Origin: Roseomonas marmotae
GTDB lineage: Bacteria > Pseudomonadota > Alphaproteobacteria > Acetobacterales > Acetobacteraceae
Reading direction: 5' to 3'
DNA length: 64,000 nucleotides
Assembly (NCBI RefSeq): GCF_017654485.1
Contig: NZ_CP061091.1
Span: forward strand, 3,292,501 to 3,356,500
Below are positions 1 to 12,519 of this stretch, piece by piece (positions within the stretch are counted from its first letter, which is position 1; every line of letters starts with the position of its first letter). The position numbers and the translations under genes were made by a program. Under the pieces are notes generated by a model. That model made no database searches. It was given only the letters and a program-made list of their open reading frames with translations, and was not told where the DNA came from.

Positions 1-352
1 CTGGCCTTTCAGATTCTCCTGAACGCGCGCGAGAGCCACCTGCGCCTTGAGGCGCATGCCCTCGGCCGTACGCGCCGGCAGTTCCAGCAACTTGGCCAGG
101 ACGGCATGAAGGTCCGGCACGCGCGCTCGCTGGGCCTGGAAGAGGCGTTCTTCCTCGTCCTTGTCCCCGGCATCCGCGGCCTCGAACATCTCTTCCATCA
201 GGGCGTTGGTCTCGCTCTCGATGGCGAGAAAGCGCCGGCAGAGGGCGATCAGTCGGCATCGGAGAGATGGCCGCGGCGCTGGCGGACAGGGCAGGCGCAG
301 CCACGACGGGCAGGACGATGGACATGGCGGATCTTCTCGACAGACGAGTCAT
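1..352 (-). pseudogene. Frameshifted small Tat-type exported protein, 3' end outside window
   Basis: On the minus strand an ATG at 352 overlaps the stop of the upstream 66-residue gene (ATGA). The first frame reads a twin-arginine-like leader, MTRLSRRSAM, then an Ala/Val/Pro-rich hydrophobic stretch. Near 245-262 good coding sequence moves to another frame, reading LIALCRRFLAIESETNALMEE and then a charged helical region that stays open to the window edge. Related small proteins commonly read 'PDAELIALC' at this junction, so a net change of +1 or -2 bases is likely. The downstream frame has a normal amino acid composition and is clearly coding. It could be a real lesion or a sequencing error. 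Function is unknown. Confidence 0.55.
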
Positions 353-549
353 GCCCTGATCGCCTCCAGGATGGACGTGGCCAGGCACGCGATCATCAGC
401 ACGCCATTGTGCAGGCCGATTTCGGTAAGCCCGGTCCGCTCGTCACAGAGCGCGCGCGCGACCATGTTGATGGAAGGAAGCCGTTCTTCGAGCGGGATAG
501 TGGCCACCAGGGCGGCCGTCTCCTCCTGGGTGCGGAGCCTCTCCATCAC
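349..549 (-). CDS. Small hypothetical protein, 66 aa
   Basis: Starts GTG-ATG at 549, overlapping the stop of the preceding short frame, and ends in an ATGA overlap with the broken exported-protein gene downstream. The protein is mostly helical (MMERLRTQEETAALVATIPL near the start) with a hydrophobic C-terminal third (GVLMIACLATSILEAIRA). I do not recognise a family. The two tight overlaps and balanced composition argue that it is real and translationally coupled to its neighbours in the integrated element. Confidence 0.45.
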   Translation of the reverse strand: MMERLRTQEETAALVATIPLEERLPSINMVARALCDERTGLTEIGLHNGVLMIACLATSILEAIRA

Positions 550-953
550 AGCAACACCCCCGCGACCCAGACGCCGCCGGAGAAGAACCCGAGAGCGAAG
601 AGGAAGCTGAAAGCGGCCCGCTCGCCGCAGGTGGGGGCGGGGATGCTGTCAGGCTTCGGGAACCCGCCCGGCAGCGCAGGGGCGCCAGGGCAAGGGCCGC
701 CGCGCCAGGCGAGCGGCTTCGGCGGTGCGAAGGCAGAGAGCGGAGGCAGCGAGCCGGTGGCCACATAGGCCAGGCAAACCTGAAGCTGCGTCGGCTGAAC
801 AGAGGCAGCCGGTCTTCTTCTAAAAGTGGGCGCAGTTGAGCTATAGGCGCAGGTAGCCACGGCAGTTCTCCACCGAACGGTTGTGGTCAGGCCGGGCTTG
901 GAGGTGGTGCTCCTTGCTCGGCCGTTTTCAGTTGGAGTGGTGTCCAACCTCAA
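546..953 (-). CDS. Putative small protein with one C-terminal membrane segment
   Basis: The C-terminal half looks coding: a Pro-rich linker, then a hydrophobic segment (AAFSFLFALGFFSGGVWVAG) just before the stop, which overlaps the GTG start of the 66-residue gene. The N-terminal half, from ATG 953, is rich in Thr, Arg and Ser and may not be translated, so the true start may lie nearer 780. No family recognised. It would be the first gene of a coupled three-gene string reading left out of the window. Confidence 0.3.
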   Translation of the reverse strand: MRLDTTPTENGRARSTTSKPGLTTTVRWRTAVATCAYSSTAPTFRRRPAASVQPTQLQVCLAYVATGSLPPLSAFAPPKPLAWRGGPCPGAPALPGGFPKPDSIPAPTCGERAAFSFLFALGFFSGGVWVAGVLL

Positions 954-993
954 TTATTATGATTGGCATAATCCGTAACGTCAATCAGAAAGA

Positions 994-1257
994 TTGAACT
1001 TGGCCTCACTCACGATATCTGCCGCTCAATGTCGCGGTGCTCGGGCTATGCTCGGCTGGAATCAGGCTCAGTTGGCTGAGGCTGCCCAGGTAGCTCGCCA
1101 GACGGTGGTGGACTTCGAGCGAGGAGCCCGAACCCCCTATCCGAACAATCTCACCGCCATCCGCGCGGCCCTCGAAGCCGCCGGTGTGGAGTTCATTCCG
1201 GAGAATGGCGGGGGCGCGGGGGTAAGGTTGAGGAAGGCCAGCGAGAGCGAGCACTGA
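994..1257 (+). CDS. XRE-family helix-turn-helix regulator, 87 aa
   Basis: A one-domain DNA-binding protein. The helix-turn-helix spans about residues 12-50: 'ARAMLGWNQAQLAEAAQVAR' followed by TVVDFERGARTPYPNNL. The C-terminal 'GVEFIPENGGGAGVRLRK' is typical of short alphaproteobacterial XRE proteins in mobile regions. The proposed start is TTG 994 behind AGAAAGA; the first ATG in frame is residue 19, inside the HTH, so an upstream non-ATG start is required. It leads a probable operon with two genes that follow at 1-base and 14-base gaps, and may repress it. Confidence 0.75.
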   Translation: MNLASLTISAAQCRGARAMLGWNQAQLAEAAQVARQTVVDFERGARTPYPNNLTAIRAALEAAGVEFIPENGGGAGVRLRKASESEH

Positions 1258-1258
1258 C

Positions 1259-1480
1259 ATGCCTCCCAGGTCGGAAAGGCAGCCGCCTGCCATCGGGTCG
1301 ATATGGGCGCCGGCCGTTGGTGGATCTCCACAGCGCGTGGTGGTGCGGCTGGGCTTCAACAGCTCCAACACGCCCCTTGTGTTGTTCCGCCGCGGGGAGG
1401 AGACGGATGTTCGCTCGTGCACATTGACTGCGTGGCACCGTTGGGTGACGGACAACAAGGCGGTTGTTCTGCCAGGGTAA
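1259..1480 (+). CDS. Hypothetical protein, 73 aa
   Basis: ATG 1259 lies one base after the XRE stop, and the frame ends 14 bases before the DUF2513 start. The residues are balanced rather than the Arg/Ala/Gly/Pro mix of a shadow frame (for example VVVRLGFNSSNTPLVLFRRG). No family is recognised and no signal peptide or membrane segment is seen. Support comes only from composition and from the tight fit between two convincing genes. Confidence 0.4.
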   Translation: MPPRSERQPPAIGSIWAPAVGGSPQRVVVRLGFNSSNTPLVLFRRGEETDVRSCTLTAWHRWVTDNKAVVLPG

Positions 1481-1494
1481 GGGAAACAGCCAAA

Positions 1495-1911
1495 GTGAAG
1501 ATCGACCAGGATTACCTGAAACATCTACTGGATGCCTTCGAGAGCGCCCCTGGACCGGTCACAGACATTCAGCAGCTCCAGGCGTCTGGCCTCGACTATC
1601 GAACCGACGCCTTTATCTTCCATGCTGAGATTTTAGCTGATCAAGGCTTCCTCACCCGAGACGACAGGAAGGCCGGTATCGGACTACAGCGCGGAGCGGA
1701 CGGGTCGATTCAATGGTCGGTCTTACCTCTCCGCCTCACAGCTGCGGGCCACGAGTTCGCCGAAAACCTCCGCAACAAGGAGGTTTGGACCACTATCAAG
1801 ACCAGTTTCAGGGATGCCAGCATCAGCACACTTGCGAGCGTGGCGAAGCAATTGGCCGAAGGGTACGCAAAGCAGAAGATGGAGCGGCTTCTGGGCCTGG
1901 GAAGCTCATAA
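1495..1911 (+). CDS. DUF2513 domain protein, 138 aa
   Basis: GTG 1495 follows a purine-rich AAGGGAAA site. The frame is open far upstream, but good coding begins at VKIDQDYLKHLLDAFESAPG. The protein matches the general pattern of DUF2513: a short N-terminal helix, a winged-helix-like middle (AFIFHAEILADQGFLTRDD), and a C-terminal 'LTAAGHEFAENLRNKEVWTT' followed by a helical tail. DUF2513 proteins are common in phages and integrated elements and their role is unknown. The codon use is less GC-extreme than in the chromosome to the right. Confidence 0.7.
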   Translation: MKIDQDYLKHLLDAFESAPGPVTDIQQLQASGLDYRTDAFIFHAEILADQGFLTRDDRKAGIGLQRGADGSIQWSVLPLRLTAAGHEFAENLRNKEVWTTIKTSFRDASISTLASVAKQLAEGYAKQKMERLLGLGSS

Positions 1912-1914
1912 CAA

Positions 1915-1942
1915 AGCCCGCCGCGGCAGGGCCGGGCGGGCT
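1915..1942. terminator. Hairpin between convergent genes
   Basis: AGCCCGCC at 1915-1922 pairs perfectly with GGCGGGCT at 1935-1942, with a 12-base loop. It lies just after the DUF2513 stop and before the 3' end of the DUF4325 gene, so it can end transcription from both sides. No long T-run follows. Confidence 0.45.
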
Positions 1943-1958
1943 GGTAACTGCTTCTCCG

Positions 1959-2258
1959 TCAAGCGCAGAGTGGGCGGAGAAGTTCAGCTTCCTTCGCCAC
2001 GCGTTCCTTGATCAAGGCATTAATCTGCCGCGTTGAGTCCGTGATTTTGACCAGCCTACGGATTACGTCCGCCGGATAGGAGTTCAACAGGCTGACAAAG
2101 GCCGCGTTTACGAAAGAGGACGGCACGGCATAGACGCCTCGGAAGCTCAGCGTGACCATCTCTCCGCGTCGAAGGGAGTCGCTGATCAGCTGGGCAATGA
2201 TAAGCCCGTCAGCATAGGTTTGGCAGTTTGGCGCATGATCGATGACGGTGATCACCAT
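1959..2258 (-). CDS. DUF4325 STAS-like protein, 99 aa
   Basis: Starts at ATG 2258, overlapping the last seven bases of the ATPase gene upstream (GAATGGTGA), so the two are translationally coupled. It is a single compact alpha/beta domain: a helix with 'DGLIIAQLISDSLRRGEMV', a strand 'VTLSFRGVYAVPSSFVNAAF' and a late strand 'IRRLVKITD'. The 'F-x-G-V-x-x-V-x-S-S-F' signature is that of DUF4325, a STAS-like fold. STAS proteins commonly bind or sense GHKL kinases, as SpoIIAA does with SpoIIAB. The coupling to a STAS/GHKL fusion makes a protein-protein switch likely, but that is inference. No DNA-binding or catalytic motif is seen. Confidence 0.75.
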   Translation of the reverse strand: MVITVIDHAPNCQTYADGLIIAQLISDSLRRGEMVTLSFRGVYAVPSSFVNAAFVSLLNSYPADVIRRLVKITDSTRQINALIKERVAKEAELLRPLCA

Positions 2259-3142
2259 TCGAGATCCTCCCGTTCCATCTCGTCGGGAACCAGTGTATCC
2301 GTCCTTAGTTTCACTTCGATCAACGTCCCGGGATAGTGCCCGATCGCTTCGAAATCGGCCATCCCAATTTCCTCTCCTCGAGGAAAGCACGACACACACC
2401 CTCGGCCGGACCTGATATAAACCCGCCCCTGGTTTGTTCTTACCACCCGGCGAATCAGAAGGTCCAGCCCGATGCCGCGGTTGCCTTGCGTGCTTCGGGA
2501 GGTAACTCCCTCCTCACAGGCACGCCTGATGATTTCGGCGTCTCGGCCTGCCGCTTGAACCTTTTTCATTGAGCCAGGAATACCCACACCGAAATCAGAA
2601 ATAGAGATGATGATCTCGTTCTTATTCGGATAGTGCTGCATATAAATACAGCCTATATCCCTCCCAGAATGATCTTGAATATTATTGAATATTTCCTGCA
2701 TGCACATTTTCATGCTGGCCAATGCAGGCATCGGCATATTCAGACGAGAGGCCAGCCACGGCAGGAAGTTACAGTCCAGCCAGCCATGGCTTTCCAGGTG
2801 GATCACCCGTTGAAGGGGAACCGTAGTCTCTCGAACCTGAGCAAAGGGTGAAAGGGGCTGACCACCGTAGAGTTCGAAAAACCCCGAATCATCAAGGTAG
2901 CGGATGGGCGCACTCTCAGTGTGCGCACCTTCCAGCGCAAGTTGGCAGCCGTTTGCCAACGCAAGCTCCAAGGCATTGGAAAGGCTCGTAACGCCGACCG
3001 GCTCAATGAAGCGCAGGCTAGAGAAATCAAGCCGATAGGCCGTCGCAAGTGGCTGTCCGGCTTCTGTGAACATCTGCCTCAGAAGCGCATACATCCCAGT
3101 GGCGTCCATATTCCGCGGCAGCAGAACTGTTCTCTCACCCAT
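2252..3142 (-). CDS. STAS-like domain fused to a GHKL (HATPase_c) ATP-binding domain
   Basis: The protein is 296 residues from ATG 3142. Residues 1-95 form a STAS-like domain (RLDFSSLRFIEPVGVTSLSN, then YLDDSGFFELYGG). Residues about 140-280 form a GHKL ATPase: N-box 'MQEIFNNIQDHSG' (E150, N153, N154), G1 box 'SDFGVGIPG' (D183, G185, G187) and G2 box 'GNRGIGLDLL' (G220-L226). No His phosphoacceptor (DHp) helix is present, so it resembles an anti-sigma-type switch or GHKL regulator more than a sensor kinase. It is co-transcribed with the DUF4325 gene, with overlapping ends. The frame is open upstream as far as 3256, but that part reads through the repeat block, so 3142 is preferred. It is AT-richer than the chromosome and lies beside the integrase. 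Confidence 0.75.
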   Translation of the reverse strand: MGERTVLLPRNMDATGMYALLRQMFTEAGQPLATAYRLDFSSLRFIEPVGVTSLSNALELALANGCQLALEGAHTESAPIRYLDDSGFFELYGGQPLSPFAQVRETTVPLQRVIHLESHGWLDCNFLPWLASRLNMPMPALASMKMCMQEIFNNIQDHSGRDIGCIYMQHYPNKNEIIISISDFGVGIPGSMKKVQAAGRDAEIIRRACEEGVTSRSTQGNRGIGLDLLIRRVVRTNQGRVYIRSGRGCVSCFPRGEEIGMADFEAIGHYPGTLIEVKLRTDTLVPDEMEREDLEW

Positions 3143-3211
3143 TTCCACAGCCTTGTAGCCGAGCCGGTAGGTGATGCCTCCTCTACCAGCTGCAGGCAAG
3201 CACGCCCTCCC

Positions 3212-3326
3212 CTGTGCCACCTGTGCCACCTCTGTGCCACCCAGGTGGCACAGCATGGCACAGCCTGCAGAGCGCTGATTTTATTAATCTTCTCTGTTGC
3301 TGTGCCACCTGTGCCACCTGTGCCAC
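3212..3326. repeat. CTGTGCCAC repeat block upstream of the STAS/ATPase gene
   Basis: Six exact direct copies of CTGTGCCAC occur at 3212-3220, 3221-3229, 3232-3240, 3300-3308, 3309-3317 and 3318-3326. An inverted copy lies at 3245-3253 and an eight-base inverted copy (TGGCACAG) at 3256-3263. The third copy and the inverted copy form a perfect hairpin with 10-base arms and a 2-base loop (3232-3253). Between the two clusters is an AT-rich stretch (ATTTTATTAATCT). Tandem copies repeat every nine bases, close to one helical turn. The block sits between the integrase 3' end and the ATPase start, so it may be an operator array or an iteron-like replication or excision element. Confidence 0.8.
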
Positions 3327-3354
3327 GCCAAAACAGTAAGTCGCGTGAGAGATT

Positions 3355-4668
3355 TCAGGCCTGCGGCTCCGAGGCCCCTGCCTCCCCAGCCATTTGCCTA
3401 CGGATCTCAGCGGCCACCCGATCCGCTGCGGCGATCAGCACCGCATCGAGGTGGTGGACGTACCGCCCAGTAATGGTCCCGGAGGAGTGTCCGATCATCG
3501 CGGCAATAGTCGGCTCGCTGTAGCCGAGATCCGCGGCTGTGGAGGCGAAGCTGTGCCGCAGGGTGTGAAGGGTAATCCCCACCAGCCCGGCATCTTTGGC
3601 CAGCCGGTCCCATGCGCCTGGTAGGCCGCCATAGGGCTTCATCGGGTCGCGACCAGTCACGACATACACTTGCCCTTCTTCGATCGGCGCTGCCGTCTCC
3701 AGCAGAGCCAGAACGGCCCTGCCGATCGGCCGCACAGACGCACCCTCCTTGCTGTCCTCCAGCCGCAGAGCGTTGCCGGCGGCGTCCACCTCCGACCACT
3801 TCAGGTTTTCCACCTCACCCCTGCGGCAGCCAGTCAGAGCCAGCAGCCGAATAGCCAGGATGGCGGCAGAGCTGCCGCCCTCTGTCTCCCACTTCCGCAA
3901 AGTCTGGCCGAGCTGGGCGTAGGTCTCCGGGGTTAGCCTGGTCTTCCGCCGGCTATCAGCCGGGCGCTTTACCCCGTGCACCGGGTTGGCCTCGATTACC
4001 CCCTCCGACAGCGCGAAGGAGAGGATACCGCCCAGCAGGCCCATGGTCCGAGTGGCGGCCCCCTTCCCTCCTTCTACGATGGACTTGCCCCGGAGCTTGT
4101 CGGTCTTTGCTGTCCTTGCCGCCTTCCCGGCAGCCACATCCCGCATGAAGCGGGTCACGTCCGCCCGGGTCAGTTCCGCCACTTTTTTGTTACCCAGAAG
4201 CGGCAGGATATGGGCTCCGATCCGGCTCCGATCGGCCACCAAGGTGCTGGCCTTCTTCGCCTCGCCCCGCTTACCCAGGATCAGGCCTTTGTCGGCCGCC
4301 TCCAGGTAGCGCTCGCACAACTGCTCGATGGTCATGGTCTTGCGGCGGGTTGCGCGCTCCTCCGCCGGATCTCCGCCTCTGGCCACCTGCCCCAGAAGCG
4401 ACATGGCTTCCTTGCGGGCTTCATCTGGGGTTACGCGCCCATGCAGGCCGATGTTGGCCCGGCGGCTCCGCCCAGCGCTGCGGTACTGGACTAGGTAACC
4501 TTTTCTACCTGACGGATAGACCCTAAGACCAAAGCCTGGCAGTTCATCGCACCACAGGAAATACTCGGCCGCCCTTGGCTCTGCGGCGTCAACGAGGCGC
4601 TTAGTGATCTTCGGCAAGCTAGGCTCTCCGCTGGTTCCCGGAAGCACCACGGAAGCAGCCGGAAGCAA
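3355..4668 (-). CDS. Tyrosine recombinase / integrase with DUF4102-type N-terminal domain
   Basis: Catalyses site-specific integration and excision of the element. The N-terminal arm-binding domain (residues about 18-100: KRLVDAAEPRAAEYFLWCDE, GFGLRVYPSGRKGY) is of the DUF4102 type found in P4-like integrases that use tRNA genes. A SAM-like core-binding domain spans about 110-235. The catalytic domain holds R282 (TGCRRGE), H368 and R371 (HTLRHSF), H394 (GHSS) and the nucleophile Y403 (GRYVH), so it looks intact. ATG 4668 is one start; TTG 4617 (LPKITKRLVDA) has GGAGAG six bases upstream and may be the true one. It reads away from the attachment site about 120 bases upstream. Confidence 0.93.
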   Translation of the reverse strand: MLPAASVVLPGTSGEPSLPKITKRLVDAAEPRAAEYFLWCDELPGFGLRVYPSGRKGYLVQYRSAGRSRRANIGLHGRVTPDEARKEAMSLLGQVARGGDPAEERATRRKTMTIEQLCERYLEAADKGLILGKRGEAKKASTLVADRSRIGAHILPLLGNKKVAELTRADVTRFMRDVAAGKAARTAKTDKLRGKSIVEGGKGAATRTMGLLGGILSFALSEGVIEANPVHGVKRPADSRRKTRLTPETYAQLGQTLRKWETEGGSSAAILAIRLLALTGCRRGEVENLKWSEVDAAGNALRLEDSKEGASVRPIGRAVLALLETAAPIEEGQVYVVTGRDPMKPYGGLPGAWDRLAKDAGLVGITLHTLRHSFASTAADLGYSEPTIAAMIGHSSGTITGRYVHHLDAVLIAAADRVAAEIRRQMAGEAGASEPQA

Positions 4669-4785
4669 ATCCGGGCGTTTCCGCGAAATGGCTCGGGTTT
4701 AGCGAAGCGGAATTTTTTGTATATTTCCAGCAGCTTATCCGCTCCGCGCCGCTCCGGGAAAGCTCGGGAAAACCATTATCTTCGG

Positions 4786-4832
4786 CCCTCCGAAGGCAAA
4801 GGTCGTACGTTCGAATCGTATCGGGTCCGCCA
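4786..4832 (+). other. Attachment site: 3' half of a tRNA-Arg(CCG) gene
   Basis: The sequence reads as the end of a tRNA: anticodon loop CTCCGAA (4788-4794, anticodon CCG), 3' anticodon strand GGCAA (4795-4799), variable loop AGGTC, T-arm GTACG-TTCGAAT-CGTAT (4805-4821), acceptor strand CGGGTCC (4822-4828), G and CCA (4830-4832). No matching 5' acceptor GGACCCG or D-arm precedes it; the upstream bases do not pair with GGCAA. Integrases of this type recombine within tRNA 3' ends and leave such a fragment at one border. The intact tRNA should lie left of the window. A small palindrome CTTCGG/CCGAAG (4780-4795) overlaps the fragment's left end. Confidence 0.8.
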
Positions 4833-9083: not shown

Positions 9084-10208
9084 TCACCGCGCCTCGGCCA
9101 GGCGGCCGTCAAGCGGCTTGGCCTGGGCCGTGACGCGCGTGCCCGGCCGCGCCAGGTGCAGCCCGGCGACAATCACCTGATCCGTGGGGCCAAGGCCGCT
9201 GCGGACGACGCGAAGCCCGTCCACAACCGGACCCAGCGTCACAGGCTTGGCGACCACCGTGCCATCCGCGGCGACGGTCAGCACCACGCGGGAGGCCTGA
9301 TCGGCCGCGATGGCGGCATCCGGCACCAGCAGGGCATCACCGCTGCCGACAGGCAGGCGCAGCCGCGCGAAGACGCCAGGGGTCAGGAACATGTCGGGGT
9401 TCGGCAGCAGCGCGCGGGCCCGCAGCGTACCGGAGCGGGCCCGCAGCTCGCTGTCGAGGAAGTCGAGCTTGCCCTCACGCTTCCACTGCATCTCATCGGC
9501 CAGCCGCAGCTGCACCGCCAGCGCTTCGGCCCCCGCCTTCGCGCCACCGTCACGGGCCAGGCGCAGGTAATCCGCCTCGCTCATGTCGAAGCTGGCATAG
9601 ATGGGGTCCAGGGCCAGGATGGTGGTCAGCAGCGTCTGCCCGGCCTGCACGAGGTTGCCGGGGTCCACGCGGCGGTCGGAGGCGCGGCCCGATTGCGGCG
9701 CGCGAACCTCCGTCCAGCTCAGGTCCAGCCGCGCCTGCTCCAGCCGGGCACGGGCGTCGGCCACCTGGGCCTCCGCCTCCCGCTCCGCGGCGCGGCGGGA
9801 GTCCAACTGCGCCTGAGGGGCGTAGCTGCCCTGTACCAGCGGCGCCGTGCGGCGCGTGTCCTGCCGCGCCAGATCCAGCCTGGCCTGGGCGCGGTCCAGT
9901 TCGGCCTGAGTGCTGAGCACCGCGATCTCGAAGGGCCGCCGGTCGATGCTGAAGAGCAGGTCGCCTGCCTTGACGACCTGGCCGTCGCGGAAATGCACCT
10001 GCTCCACCAGTCCGGAGACACGCGGGCGCAGCTCCACACGGGCCGAGGGTTCGAGGCGGGCGATATGCTCCTCCCACTCCGTCACGTCACGGCGCAGAGG
10101 CTCAGCCACGGTCACGGATGGCGGGGCGGGCTGCGCCAGCAGCGGCGCAGCGGGAAAGGCGAAAAGAACCGCCAGGGGAAGAATGCTCTTGCGGAATGGG
10201 ATCGGCAT
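9084..10208 (-). CDS. RND efflux periplasmic adaptor (membrane fusion protein)
   Basis: Bridges the RND permease to an outer-membrane channel. Residues 1-25 are a signal peptide (SILPLAVLFAFPAAPLLAQ). The lipoyl/barrel-sandwich half motifs 'RVELRPRVSGLVEQVHFRDG' and 'WTEVRAPQSGRASDRRVDPG' flank a coiled-coil hairpin rich in Gln, Ala and Arg (residues about 95-165). A beta-barrel and a membrane-proximal domain follow. The 374-residue length is normal. No lipobox Cys is seen at the signal cleavage site, so a secreted or N-anchored form is likely. It is the first gene of the efflux operon and diverges from a TetR gene with shared operators. Confidence 0.93.
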   Translation of the reverse strand: MPIPFRKSILPLAVLFAFPAAPLLAQPAPPSVTVAEPLRRDVTEWEEHIARLEPSARVELRPRVSGLVEQVHFRDGQVVKAGDLLFSIDRRPFEIAVLSTQAELDRAQARLDLARQDTRRTAPLVQGSYAPQAQLDSRRAAEREAEAQVADARARLEQARLDLSWTEVRAPQSGRASDRRVDPGNLVQAGQTLLTTILALDPIYASFDMSEADYLRLARDGGAKAGAEALAVQLRLADEMQWKREGKLDFLDSELRARSGTLRARALLPNPDMFLTPGVFARLRLPVGSGDALLVPDAAIAADQASRVVLTVAADGTVVAKPVTLGPVVDGLRVVRSGLGPTDQVIVAGLHLARPGTRVTAQAKPLDGRLAEAR

Positions 10209-10323: not shown

Positions 10324-10941
10324 GTGATCAAGGCCCCGAGGACCAAGGCGCGCAGCCCGGCAGCCCAGCGCCTGTGCGAGGTGGCCAAGGATCTGTTCTA
10401 CCGGCAAGGCATCCGGGCGACGGGGGTGGAAGAGCTATGCCGCGTGGCCGGCACCACCAAGATCAGCCTCTACCGGGCTTTTCCCTCCAAGGACGAATTG
10501 GTCGCTGCCATCCTGCGCGAGGATTGCGAGGAAAAGAACGGCCTGCTGGAAGAGGTGATGAGCGATGCCGTGCCGGCGCAGGCGCGGCCCGCCGCGGTCC
10601 TGGCAAGGGCGGCAGCCAGCCTGCGCCAATCCGGCTTCCGTGGCTGCCCCGTCGGCATGGCTATCGTCGAATTTCCGGACCCCGAGCACCCTGCCCGCAA
10701 GGTCGCGGATGCCTACAAGCAGAAGACGCGTGAACGCCTGTGCCAGATCTGCACGGAGGCCGGCGCGGCCGATCCGCGAGGGCTGGGAGACAGCATCCTG
10801 CTGCTGATCGAGGGAGCTTTTTCCGCCGCGCCCTATCTGGGCAATGACGAAGCCGCGCGGATGCTGGAACGCGCGGGCACAGCCATACTGCATCTGGCTC
10901 TGCCGGCTGTGAAGCGGGCCGGCATCGCGGTGCCGGCCTAG
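10324..10941 (+). CDS. TetR/AcrR-family repressor of the adjacent RND operon
   Basis: A 205-residue regulator from GTG 10324, which follows GAGGGAGAG. The N-terminal HTH spans residues about 12-58: 'AAQRLCEVAKDLFYRQGIRA', then TGVEELCRVAGTTKISLYRAF. The C-terminal domain contains GCPVGMAIVEFPDPEHPAR, which resembles a TetR_C subgroup of AefR/YxaF-like repressors. It is divergent from the RND operon and shares an operator region with it, the classic layout for local repression relieved by an effluxed ligand. The 3' end converges on the peptide-type binding protein, 9 bases away. Confidence 0.9.
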   Translation: MIKAPRTKARSPAAQRLCEVAKDLFYRQGIRATGVEELCRVAGTTKISLYRAFPSKDELVAAILREDCEEKNGLLEEVMSDAVPAQARPAAVLARAAASLRQSGFRGCPVGMAIVEFPDPEHPARKVADAYKQKTRERLCQICTEAGAADPRGLGDSILLLIEGAFSAAPYLGNDEAARMLERAGTAILHLALPAVKRAGIAVPA

Positions 10942-10950
10942 CCTTCAGAT

Positions 10951-12519
10951 TCAGGCCTTCTGCACGTTCCAGAAGACGGCCACAGGGGATTTCACGAATC
11001 CCGAGAGCTTCGTGCTGAAGGCCTGCCGGTTGAAGAACTGGCCACAGGGCAGGAAGGGCGGTTCCGCGAAAGCCTGACGCTGGATCTGCTCGGCCACCGC
11101 GCGCTGCGCCGGCAGGTCGGGTGCATCGAACCAGCTGTCGCGCAATTCGTCAAAGCGCGTGGGCGTCGATCTGTAGAGATGCGCATGCATCGCGGGATTG
11201 GTGATCCAGAGGCCCGCCCAGGAGCTCGCATAACAATGCCACGCGCCGACACCGCCCCTGGTATTGACGCGGCCAAGCAGGCTGCCCCAGTCCATGGTCT
11301 GGTAGTCCAGCTTGAATCCAACATCCGTCAGAAGCTGCCGCGCGACCGGTGAGAAGGCGGCCGAGGTCGCGAGGTCCGAGGCTTCCATCATGATGACCGG
11401 CTCACCGGCGTAACCGGATTCCCGCAGCATCTTGCGCGCGAGTTCGAGATCGCGCGGGCCGGTCAGGGCCTCCATCCCCGCGTCATTCGCCATCGGCGTG
11501 CCGGGCAGGAAGACGCCGCATTCGGTGTTCATCAGCTCCGGCTGATCCCCCAGCAGGGACTGCATGAAGTCCTCCTGCTGCAAGGCCGGCAGCAGCGCGC
11601 GGGCCACCTTCGGATTGTTGAAGGGCGGCACTTCCGTGTTGAAGCGCAGCTGACCCCAGGAGCCCAGCGGGTCCAGCACATCCACCTTCAGGTTCCGGTT
11701 GCGTTGAAGCATCGGCACCAGATCGGTCAGCGGGCGCTCGACCCAGTCCACCTCCCCCGCCTGCAGGGCGGAAGCAGCCGTGCCGGGATCAGGCATGACA
11801 TGCCATTCGATGCGGTCGAAATGCACGGGGCGCCCGCCGGCCCAGAATTCCGGCTTCTCTTCCCGCGAGACGTAGCGGGGGTTGCGCTCGAACACGGCGC
11901 GGGCGCCGGCCACCCATTCATCCTTGCGGAAGATGAAGGGGCCGCTGCCGGTATAGTCGCTCACGCTCACCGAGGCGGGCGTGCTGCTCGCCACCCGCTC
12001 CGGCATCATAAAACAGGCCGTGGCACCCAGGGCGAATTGCATCTGCGGGAAAGGACGCTTCAGCCGGATCTCGAACCGGCGGTCGTCGAGGGCGCGGATA
12101 TCCTCGGCCTGCGCCTTCATCCGCACGCCGAAGCCATCCCTCTGCGCCCAGCGCAGGATGGAGGCGACGCAGTCCCTGGCCGTCACCTTCTCCCCGTCAT
12201 GCCAGAGCAGGCCCTCCCGCAGCGTGAAGATCCAGTGCAGGCGGTCGTCCGAAAGCTCATGCCCCGCGACCATCTGCGGGCGCGGCGTCAGGCTGTTATC
12301 CAGCCCGTAGAGCCGGTCCCAGATCATCGTGGCCGCGCAATAGGAGATCAGCGCCGTGGACCATAGCGGGTCCAGCGAGGTGAGGTTGGCATGCGGCACG
12401 AAGCGCAAGGTGCGCGCGCTCCCCTGTGCCACAGCCGGCCGCCCGAGACCGGATGCCAGCAGGCCGCCCCCCATGGCGAGAGCGGCTCTACGTGTAAACC
12501 CGGGCAGCATATGCGGCAT
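10951..12519 (-). CDS. ABC transporter substrate-binding protein, peptide/nickel family (SBP_bac_5)
   Basis: A periplasmic binding protein of 522 residues. A twin-arginine-type leader (FTRRAALAMGGGLLASGLGR) ends near AVAQ. The mature protein has SBP_bac_5 features: 'NLTSLDPLWSTALISY', 'LTPRPQMVAGHELSDDRLHW', 'TLREGLLWHDGEKVTARDCV' and a C-terminal 'NPAMHAHLYRSTP'. Proteins of this class bind peptides, opines or glutathione for a DppBCDF-type importer. No permease or ATPase genes are nearby, so it is an orphan here. ATG 12519 has GGAGG nine bases upstream. Confidence 0.9.
   Translation of the reverse strand: MPHMLPGFTRRAALAMGGGLLASGLGRPAVAQGSARTLRFVPHANLTSLDPLWSTALISYCAATMIWDRLYGLDNSLTPRPQMVAGHELSDDRLHWIFTLREGLLWHDGEKVTARDCVASILRWAQRDGFGVRMKAQAEDIRALDDRRFEIRLKRPFPQMQFALGATACFMMPERVASSTPASVSVSDYTGSGPFIFRKDEWVAGARAVFERNPRYVSREEKPEFWAGGRPVHFDRIEWHVMPDPGTAASALQAGEVDWVERPLTDLVPMLQRNRNLKVDVLDPLGSWGQLRFNTEVPPFNNPKVARALLPALQQEDFMQSLLGDQPELMNTECGVFLPGTPMANDAGMEALTGPRDLELARKMLRESGYAGEPVIMMEASDLATSAAFSPVARQLLTDVGFKLDYQTMDWGSLLGRVNTRGGVGAWHCYASSWAGLWITNPAMHAHLYRSTPTRFDELRDSWFDAPDLPAQRAVAEQIQRQAFAEPPFLPCGQFFNRQAFSTKLSGFVKSPVAVFWNVQKA

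Follow-up and report, generated by a model that had tools for sequence, protein, structure and literature searches.

In the available sections of PMC13373217 (EMBO J 2026), two systems are described, CapK-CapS and VapK-VapS-VapC, each with a STAS-GHKL kinase whose target is a STAS protein; a single kinase-substrate core is wired to promoters in one system or to a toxin in the other. CapK phosphorylates Ser54 of CapS with ssDNA, and activation by ssDNA, shown for CapK, is proposed for VapK; the ssDNA-binding aromatic residues are W68 in CapK and F54 in VapK. The S48E variant of VapS no longer holds VapC, and the VapS tail (residues 94-116) is needed to block this toxin. The same source places 36% of vapKSC within 10 kb of defense genes. 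The gene pair analyzed here (referred to as K and S) resembles these newly described anti-phage switches, which are triggered by DNA damage, but neither a toxin gene nor an immune gene is attached to it. It lies near the left end of the window, the whole 64-kb stretch of Roseomonas marmotae DNA that was analyzed. A preliminary description of this DNA knew of no described function for the pairing; this is out of date because CapKS and VapKSC, as presented in the available text of PMC13373217, are relatives. In the literature searched, outside of which lie preprints and most subscription papers, we found no description of a toxin-less K-S pair and no functional assay of the branch to which this pair belongs (branch A; see below); two papers name DUF4325, and none names PF14213. 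The pair comprises the following features.

1959..2258, minus strand: S, a DUF4325 STAS-like protein of 99 aa, the predicted phospho-substrate.
2118..2120, minus strand: the Ser47 codon of S, a candidate phospho-acceptor aligned to Ser48 of VapS.
2252..2258, minus strand: the overlap of the K stop and the S start, 7 nt (ATGGTGA), with the ATG of S at 2258 and the stop of K at 2254-2252.
2252..3142, minus strand: K, a STAS-GHKL protein of 296 aa, the predicted serine/threonine kinase of S.

The proposal that one gene fuses a STAS-like domain to a GHKL ATP-binding domain was borne out. HATPase_c matched K above the Pfam cut-off (E 5.3e-6); STAS_2 (E 1e-3) and STAS (E 0.02) were both under it, and the STAS fold predicted for the N-terminus was backed by the secondary structure of the model and by the family alignment. 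The N, G1, and G2 boxes were intact, as had been stated: in 96 distinct branch A kinases scoring above 200 bits (lower-scoring and fragmentary rows excluded), the columns E146, N150, H154, D179, G183, G219, and G221 were invariant, and G181 was kept in 95. The four Pfam matches of K included no phosphoacceptor-helix family, in agreement with the preliminary description. Pfam found no HTH family on K either; the first strand of the model comprises residues 2-6 of the 295-aa modelled chain, and the family alignment starts at the STAS domain. F45, a candidate counterpart of the ssDNA-binding F54 of VapK, is conserved as F in 78 of the 96 rows and replaced by Y in 4. In a Foldseek comparison with the PDB, the AF2 model of K (pLDDT 90.3) matched SpoIIAB of the SpoIIAB-SpoIIAA complex first (1til; E 6e-4), followed by GyrB domains; sequence-profile matches were confined to CheA and other histidine kinases (E 0.003-0.009). 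A PADLOC match of K to DrmA (E 1e-7) was restricted to the ATPase region and read as the shared GHKL fold, and this assignment was rejected. The start of K was set at the ATG at 3142 because relatives begin near the residues after it; since the list of open reading frames gives 3256, within a repeat array, and a database prediction of the protein (P0001) has 315 aa, this start is not certain. The GC content of positions 2001-3000 was 0.543 versus mostly 0.63-0.72 over the following 20 kb, consistent with the lower GC noted earlier.

The next gene, S, was identified as a stand-alone DUF4325 protein (Pfam E 5.3e-11) overlapping K by 7 nt, again as first described. DUF4325 was the only Pfam domain on S, and no DNA-binding domain or wHTH was found by this method. 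A profile built from branch A only retrieved the solved VapS from the PDB (E 3.8e-10; next match, 0.045), and VapS is its only convincing PDB sequence match; CapS, which this copy of the PDB may or may not include, was absent from the matches to E 10. The phospho-serine of VapS, Ser48 (a number derived from the PDB chain numbering minus 18 residues), aligned to Ser47 of S, which counts for a kinase-substrate reading. This position is Ser or Thr in 92 of the 93 distinct branch A rows and in all 11 vapC-associated rows, and in the model of S it is the first residue of a helix (47-53). The misfits, counted against this reading, were Pro in L015 and His in L155, a divergent relative from the host genus. 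In the structure comparison of S, chain B of the SpoIIAB-SpoIIAA complex was among the STAS rows. A protein database search with S, with its word-matching limit, yielded three matches, one of which was S itself.

We compared the organization of this pair with those of the two described systems. Like VapKSC in the available text of PMC13373217, it consists of a STAS-GHKL kinase without an HTH beside a short STAS/DUF4325 protein with a conserved Ser/Thr, and the gene order, K then S, is the same in the loci identified here. Unlike VapKSC as described there, no vapC was found as a third gene in the element that carries the pair, S ends at residue 99 without the toxin-blocking C-terminal tail of VapS (94-116), and K falls outside the clade of vapC-linked kinases (SH-aLRT 95 and 100; see below). 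Therefore, the pair is not VapKSC. With CapKS, it shares a kinase and a STAS substrate as adjacent genes and the STAS-GHKL core; on the other hand, the N-terminal HTH of CapK is missing on K and the C-terminal wHTH of CapS is missing on S, and thus the pair is not CapKS. The immune operon that directly follows CapKS in the same source is also missing here, an opposite-strand DUF2513 gene taking its place.

An alignment of 29 relatives of K led to 79 genome loci and 72 viral-contig loci (151 in total), in 146 of which a K ORF scores 50 bits or more; five (L076-L080) were dropped for a weak K match or none. S adjoins K in 136 of these 146 loci, which again counts for the kinase-substrate reading, and in the remaining 10 the available DNA stops 0-111 bp past K. 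One locus counted among the adjacent pairs, L060, has its S match on the opposite strand (10484-10813), facing the kinase gene, and counts against it. The 7-nt overlap between K and S recurred in 84 of 111 measurable branch A loci. We also found two natural single-chain STAS-GHKL-DUF4325 fusions in the order K then S (L171 1914-3158 and L156 1078-2352). A fusion on a Nostoc plasmid scored 92.0 bits with the K profile and 20.7 bits with the S profile in a one-sequence search, where E-values are not comparable; the G112 fusion, a 424-aa ORF, gave a K match of 51.5 bits and a weak S match of 12.4 bits (E 0.16). An SSSF motif is present in the S part of both, and these fusions too count for the kinase-substrate reading. 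The pairing of K and S is conserved, and the two genes are a unit, in line with the SpoIIAB/SpoIIAA-like two-gene layout proposed at the outset.

Several loci depart from the standard arrangement. Two tandem DUF4325 ORFs (10858-11178 and 11347-11706) follow one kinase in Paenibacillus ferrarius (L011), and on a Bradyrhizobium plasmid (L170 6064-8418) an IS5-family transposase gene splits a K-like fragment from the S gene. The K of Streptococcus phage JX01 (L168 4995-6183) looks shortened because its annotated gene has 702 nt versus 897 nt in LYGO9, and 187 bp separate it from S.

The K-S loci fell into three groups. Branch A, which includes the window, comprises 126 loci (88 distinct at 80% identity) with K and S and no conserved third gene. 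The 11 loci of branch B are defined here by a third overlapping gene, mostly of 204-231 aa (186 aa in one), and these third genes form one BLASTP cluster (11/11); of two examined with Pfam, one matched PIN (E 2e-5) and one was unmatched. This is the layout of VapKSC. A profile of the 11 third genes matched only themselves among the loci then in the set, and no ORF of at least 50 aa in the 18.4-kb element locus matched this vapC profile. The nine loci of branch C (K-S pairs at L056, L058-L060, L062, L063, L070, L072, and L074) are all from Bacteroidota records, with S present and no third conserved gene.

In a tree of 98 kinases (the window, 80 of the 88 distinct A, 9 of the 11 B, and 8 of the 9 C loci, the rest being fragments or duplicates), branch A lay on one side of a branch with SH-aLRT 95 and the vapC-linked kinases on another with SH-aLRT 100; this is a quick tree with some long branches. 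The vapC-linked clade, of nine rows, is defined by the vapC-like third gene in the loci found here, not by the published VapK. The branch A taxa in the tree belong to Bacillota and Pseudomonadota, with one Thermodesulfobacteriota and one Bacteroidota row. Among 193 genomes (the host and its relatives), 12 matched the K profile at E 0.001; three of these gave E-values below 1e-20, namely the host itself, a member of its genus, and a member of its family.

These data bear on the possibility that the pair is a reduced VapKSC without its toxin gene, either as a relic or as an antitoxin restraining vapC toxins elsewhere, that is, an anti-toxin device of phages or satellites. The homology between S and VapS agrees with this, as do the frequent position of branch A at phage ends beside integrase or lysis genes and the finding that the vapC-linked kinases group in a single clade free of vapC-less rows. 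However, branch A is taxonomically broad and has kept its catalytic boxes and the Ser, unlike a relic; moreover, S stops short of the tail by which VapS blocks VapC in the available text of PMC13373217, and the host genome has just one PIN-family match, located on a different contig. We consider this explanation unlikely.

The neighborhoods of the relatives were then compared, the viral loci being viral by selection. No conserved third gene accompanied branch A: no BLASTP neighbor family occurred in more than 13 of the 88 distinct loci. The three commonest clusters were found in 13, 11, and 10 of them, and the first was judged to be a tyrosine integrase because it contains matches to the integrase of the window type. 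Of the 55 branch A loci from genomes, 9 have an integrase of this type in the flanking DNA available (at most 10 kb on either side). The suggestion that the module is carried by integrative elements is therefore borne out in part. Family tallies covered 137 of 164 prepared ORFs (the nearest three) from 46 of the 55 genome loci. Among the best 25 families each of Pfam and PHROGs, there were three integrase, three Amidase_3, and one TerL; the top endolysin families had three members each, the others being many single housekeeping families. In PADLOC, 30 families were tallied, with at most two members each among the best 25 listed. Since single ORFs matched PADLOC strongly (BnzB, E 5.1e-55; mad3 in two ORFs, best E 6.8e-32), some loci may neighbor defense genes; the matches were scattered and nothing was recurrent among the 137 ORFs, and a consistent defense neighborhood was rejected.

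Head and packaging genes similar to those of the element described below were seen close to the pair in a Xanthobacter locus (L032) and a Rhodobacteraceae MAG (L045). L081 has some of them, together with a nearby integrase, and all three loci might also be complete prophages. In a relative from the host family (L302 9187-10428), the pair is flanked by genes whose translations, in our reading, resemble those of a phage tail operon (sheath-like and tape-measure-like), and in a relative from the host genus the pair is beside an integrase; both observations were counted in favor of the kinase-substrate reading. In three of the four annotated Streptococcus phages examined, the pair comes directly after the lysin gene and is followed by the prophage end or an integrase; in the fourth, the gene preceding the pair is annotated as integrase family. 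In a Bacteroides phage, the pair follows the endolysin gene by approximately 1.7 kb. The gene table of a Francisella phage paper, in the part available, lists a 293-aa protein and a 112-aa DUF4325 protein following a CI repressor. From the neighbor tallies, therefore, branch A is accessory and often phage-linked, is not confined to integrative elements, and has no visible tie to defense islands.

The pair was first described as being on a mobile element, and an att-like repeat at a tRNA gene supported this. The features of the element are as follows.

L181 931-17533 (G000:C1:3280730-3297332): the island, 16.6 kb, in tRNA-Arg(CCG); its right end is positions 1-4832 of the window.
994..1257, plus strand: the HTH_3 regulator of the element (Pfam HTH_3, E 1.9e-7).
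1495..1911, plus strand: the DUF2513 gene, facing S (Pfam DUF2513, E 5.4e-10).
3213..3327: the TGTGCCAC array between the integrase stop and the K start, including an inverted copy.
3355..4668, minus strand: the tyrosine integrase, with an Arm-DNA-bind_3 domain (Pfam Phage_integrase, E 6.1e-18).
4785..4832, plus strand: the att-like repeat, a 48-bp copy of the 3' part of tRNA-Arg(CCG).

The intact tRNA-Arg(CCG) gene is located 16.6 kb leftward, beyond the window, and copies of the 48-bp repeat are at both island ends, 16,555 bp apart. Between them are genes for TerL, TerS, HNH, capsid, head protease, portal, a DUF927 primase, HTH, DUF2513, S, K, and the integrase; TerL, TerS, HNH, portal, protease, and the major capsid protein were all found by PHROGs, and Pfam also found the capsid, protease, and portal. 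No tail gene was recognized among the 19 distinct element proteins scanned (Pfam and/or PHROGs). The first recognized gene beyond S (DUF2513) is on the opposite strand, and so no partner gene follows S. When five proteins were searched with PADLOC, only K (DrmA, above) and the HTH gene (control-protein type regulators) had matches. Relatives of the HTH gene were found up to approximately 2.2 kb from the pair in three other loci (L003 12307-12585, L032 11243-11494, and L038 13334-13720). The element resembles a capsid-forming satellite: its own terminase subunits, HNH, portal, protease, capsid, integrase, and att-like repeat at a tRNA gene are shared with capsid-forming PICIs as given in the available text of PMC10690885. 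In contrast to these, whose gene set in that text also includes head-tail connectors, neither such connectors nor a classic PICI regulator was identified in the element.

The preliminary description also noted a dense operator-like array upstream of K. All six exact copies of TGTGCCACC in the 64 kb are within 3213-3318. Its one-mismatch count over the window was 25 versus 18.55 expected, a value reached in 12 of 100 shuffles; it is the clustering of the exact copies, not the one-mismatch count, that departs from chance. In the 18.4-kb element locus, 14 copies of the octamer TGTGCCAC were counted versus 0.68 expected (0 of 200 shuffles reach 14), and 13 of these copies fall in two clusters, the second of which (L181 7668-7780) lies 8 kb from the first between the primase and portal genes. 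Within the host genome, a 16-base double unit is confined to these two sites, and at least 120 viral stretches contain an 18-base double unit. Among the 120 listed, which are short, none encodes K or S, one encodes a homologous primase next to the array, and none has an integrase of the window type; accordingly, the array as a general mark of the DUF927 primase or of the integrase was rejected. Upstream of the K ORFs of relatives with at least 300 bp available (n = 125), 119 had no TGTGCCAC and six had a single copy. In the 88 distinct loci, only the upstream repeat of L081 exceeded all 50 shuffles, that of L017 being weak (1 of 50 as high). L081, the nearest relative, has an array of a different sequence in the same place, between the integrase and K: GTAGGAAC in five copies, one inverted, with a 9-bp period (9765-9846). 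Thus, the array stands as a dense cluster of exact copies, but not as part of a K-S module: as an operator of the pair it was rejected as a general feature, given the second copy 8 kb away and its absence upstream in relatives. It is best read as an element-level site, for example replication iterons or a shared operator. Satellite P4 has a two-part origin, to which the two arrays of this element may be a parallel.

The same arrays bear on the possibility that the pair regulates the element, with S, alone or with the HTH proteins of the element, controlling the two array regions (upstream of the capsid operon and of K) and timing induction to DNA damage. Two arrays of one octamer, unique to these sites in the host genome as the 16-base double unit, one between the primase and portal genes and the other upstream of K, would fit such control, as would the different array of L081 in the same place. 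However, an upstream repeat that beats every shuffle was limited to L081 among the 88 distinct relatives (L017 being weak), the array is common in viral stretches with neither K nor S (0 of the 120 listed), and S has no DNA-binding domain by Pfam, which makes this explanation quite unlikely.

That K and S form a classical partner switch, in which K would be an anti-sigma factor, S its antagonist, and the target a sigma factor elsewhere in the host, is very unlikely: SpoIIAB is the first structural match of K, the STAS rows of S include its partner in the same complex, and the NCBIfam model for anti-sigma F factor gives a weak match to K (E 0.006, far under the cut-off), but no sigma factor family was found among the 16 element proteins scanned with Pfam, VapS is the only convincing PDB sequence match of the branch A profile, and a STAS domain fused to the kinase is the layout of CapK and VapK in the available text of PMC13373217. 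By structure comparison, the GHKL kinase and STAS substrate folds are like those of SpoIIAB-SpoIIAA and RsbW-RsbV; the extra STAS domain on the kinase and the lack of a sigma factor among the element proteins scanned set the pair apart from both. The earlier remark that there is no sigma factor nearby was supported by the scan of these 16 proteins; for the receiver, which it also noted as missing, no such family was present among the best 25 of the 120 Pfam families tallied for the 137 neighbors of the relatives.

We favor, with moderate confidence, the interpretation that K and S are a damage- or ssDNA-responsive kinase-substrate switch of the Cap/Vap type, on a distinct branch, with its output in trans and with no attached DNA-binding domain or toxin. 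By its anatomy, the pair would work like CapKS and VapKSC, from which we infer phosphorylation and activation by ssDNA. K, a GHKL kinase with a STAS domain, would phosphorylate S on Ser47, where a STAS helix begins, and so may alter what S binds. K would probably be activated by ssDNA arising from DNA damage or phage infection, as is CapK and as is proposed for VapK in the available text of PMC13373217. With no conserved third gene accompanying the pair, S would have to act in trans on a partner encoded elsewhere (in the host, a helper phage, or the element) or through its own oligomeric state; an effector varying from locus to locus would escape a search for conserved neighbors. In this host, the pair is cargo beside the integrase of an island like a capsid-forming satellite, and would most likely enable the carrier cell or the element to respond to DNA damage or to a competing phage.

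What makes these genes interesting is the absence of an effector from a branch that is large and conserved: with the kinase-substrate core alone, what is its third output, beyond promoters or a toxin? Conserved residues that can be mutated and the many known carriers put this question of output within direct reach of experiment; its answer would reveal how a damaged host cell is exploited or protected by phages and satellites. Tentatively, and with some doubt, branch A may be a third, widespread class of ssDNA-triggered STAS kinase switch, a bare two-gene unit that phages, satellites, and chromosomes carry and that acts in trans on a conserved host target. If this is true, mobile elements would connect a damage sensor to a pathway of the host instead of supplying a toxin themselves.
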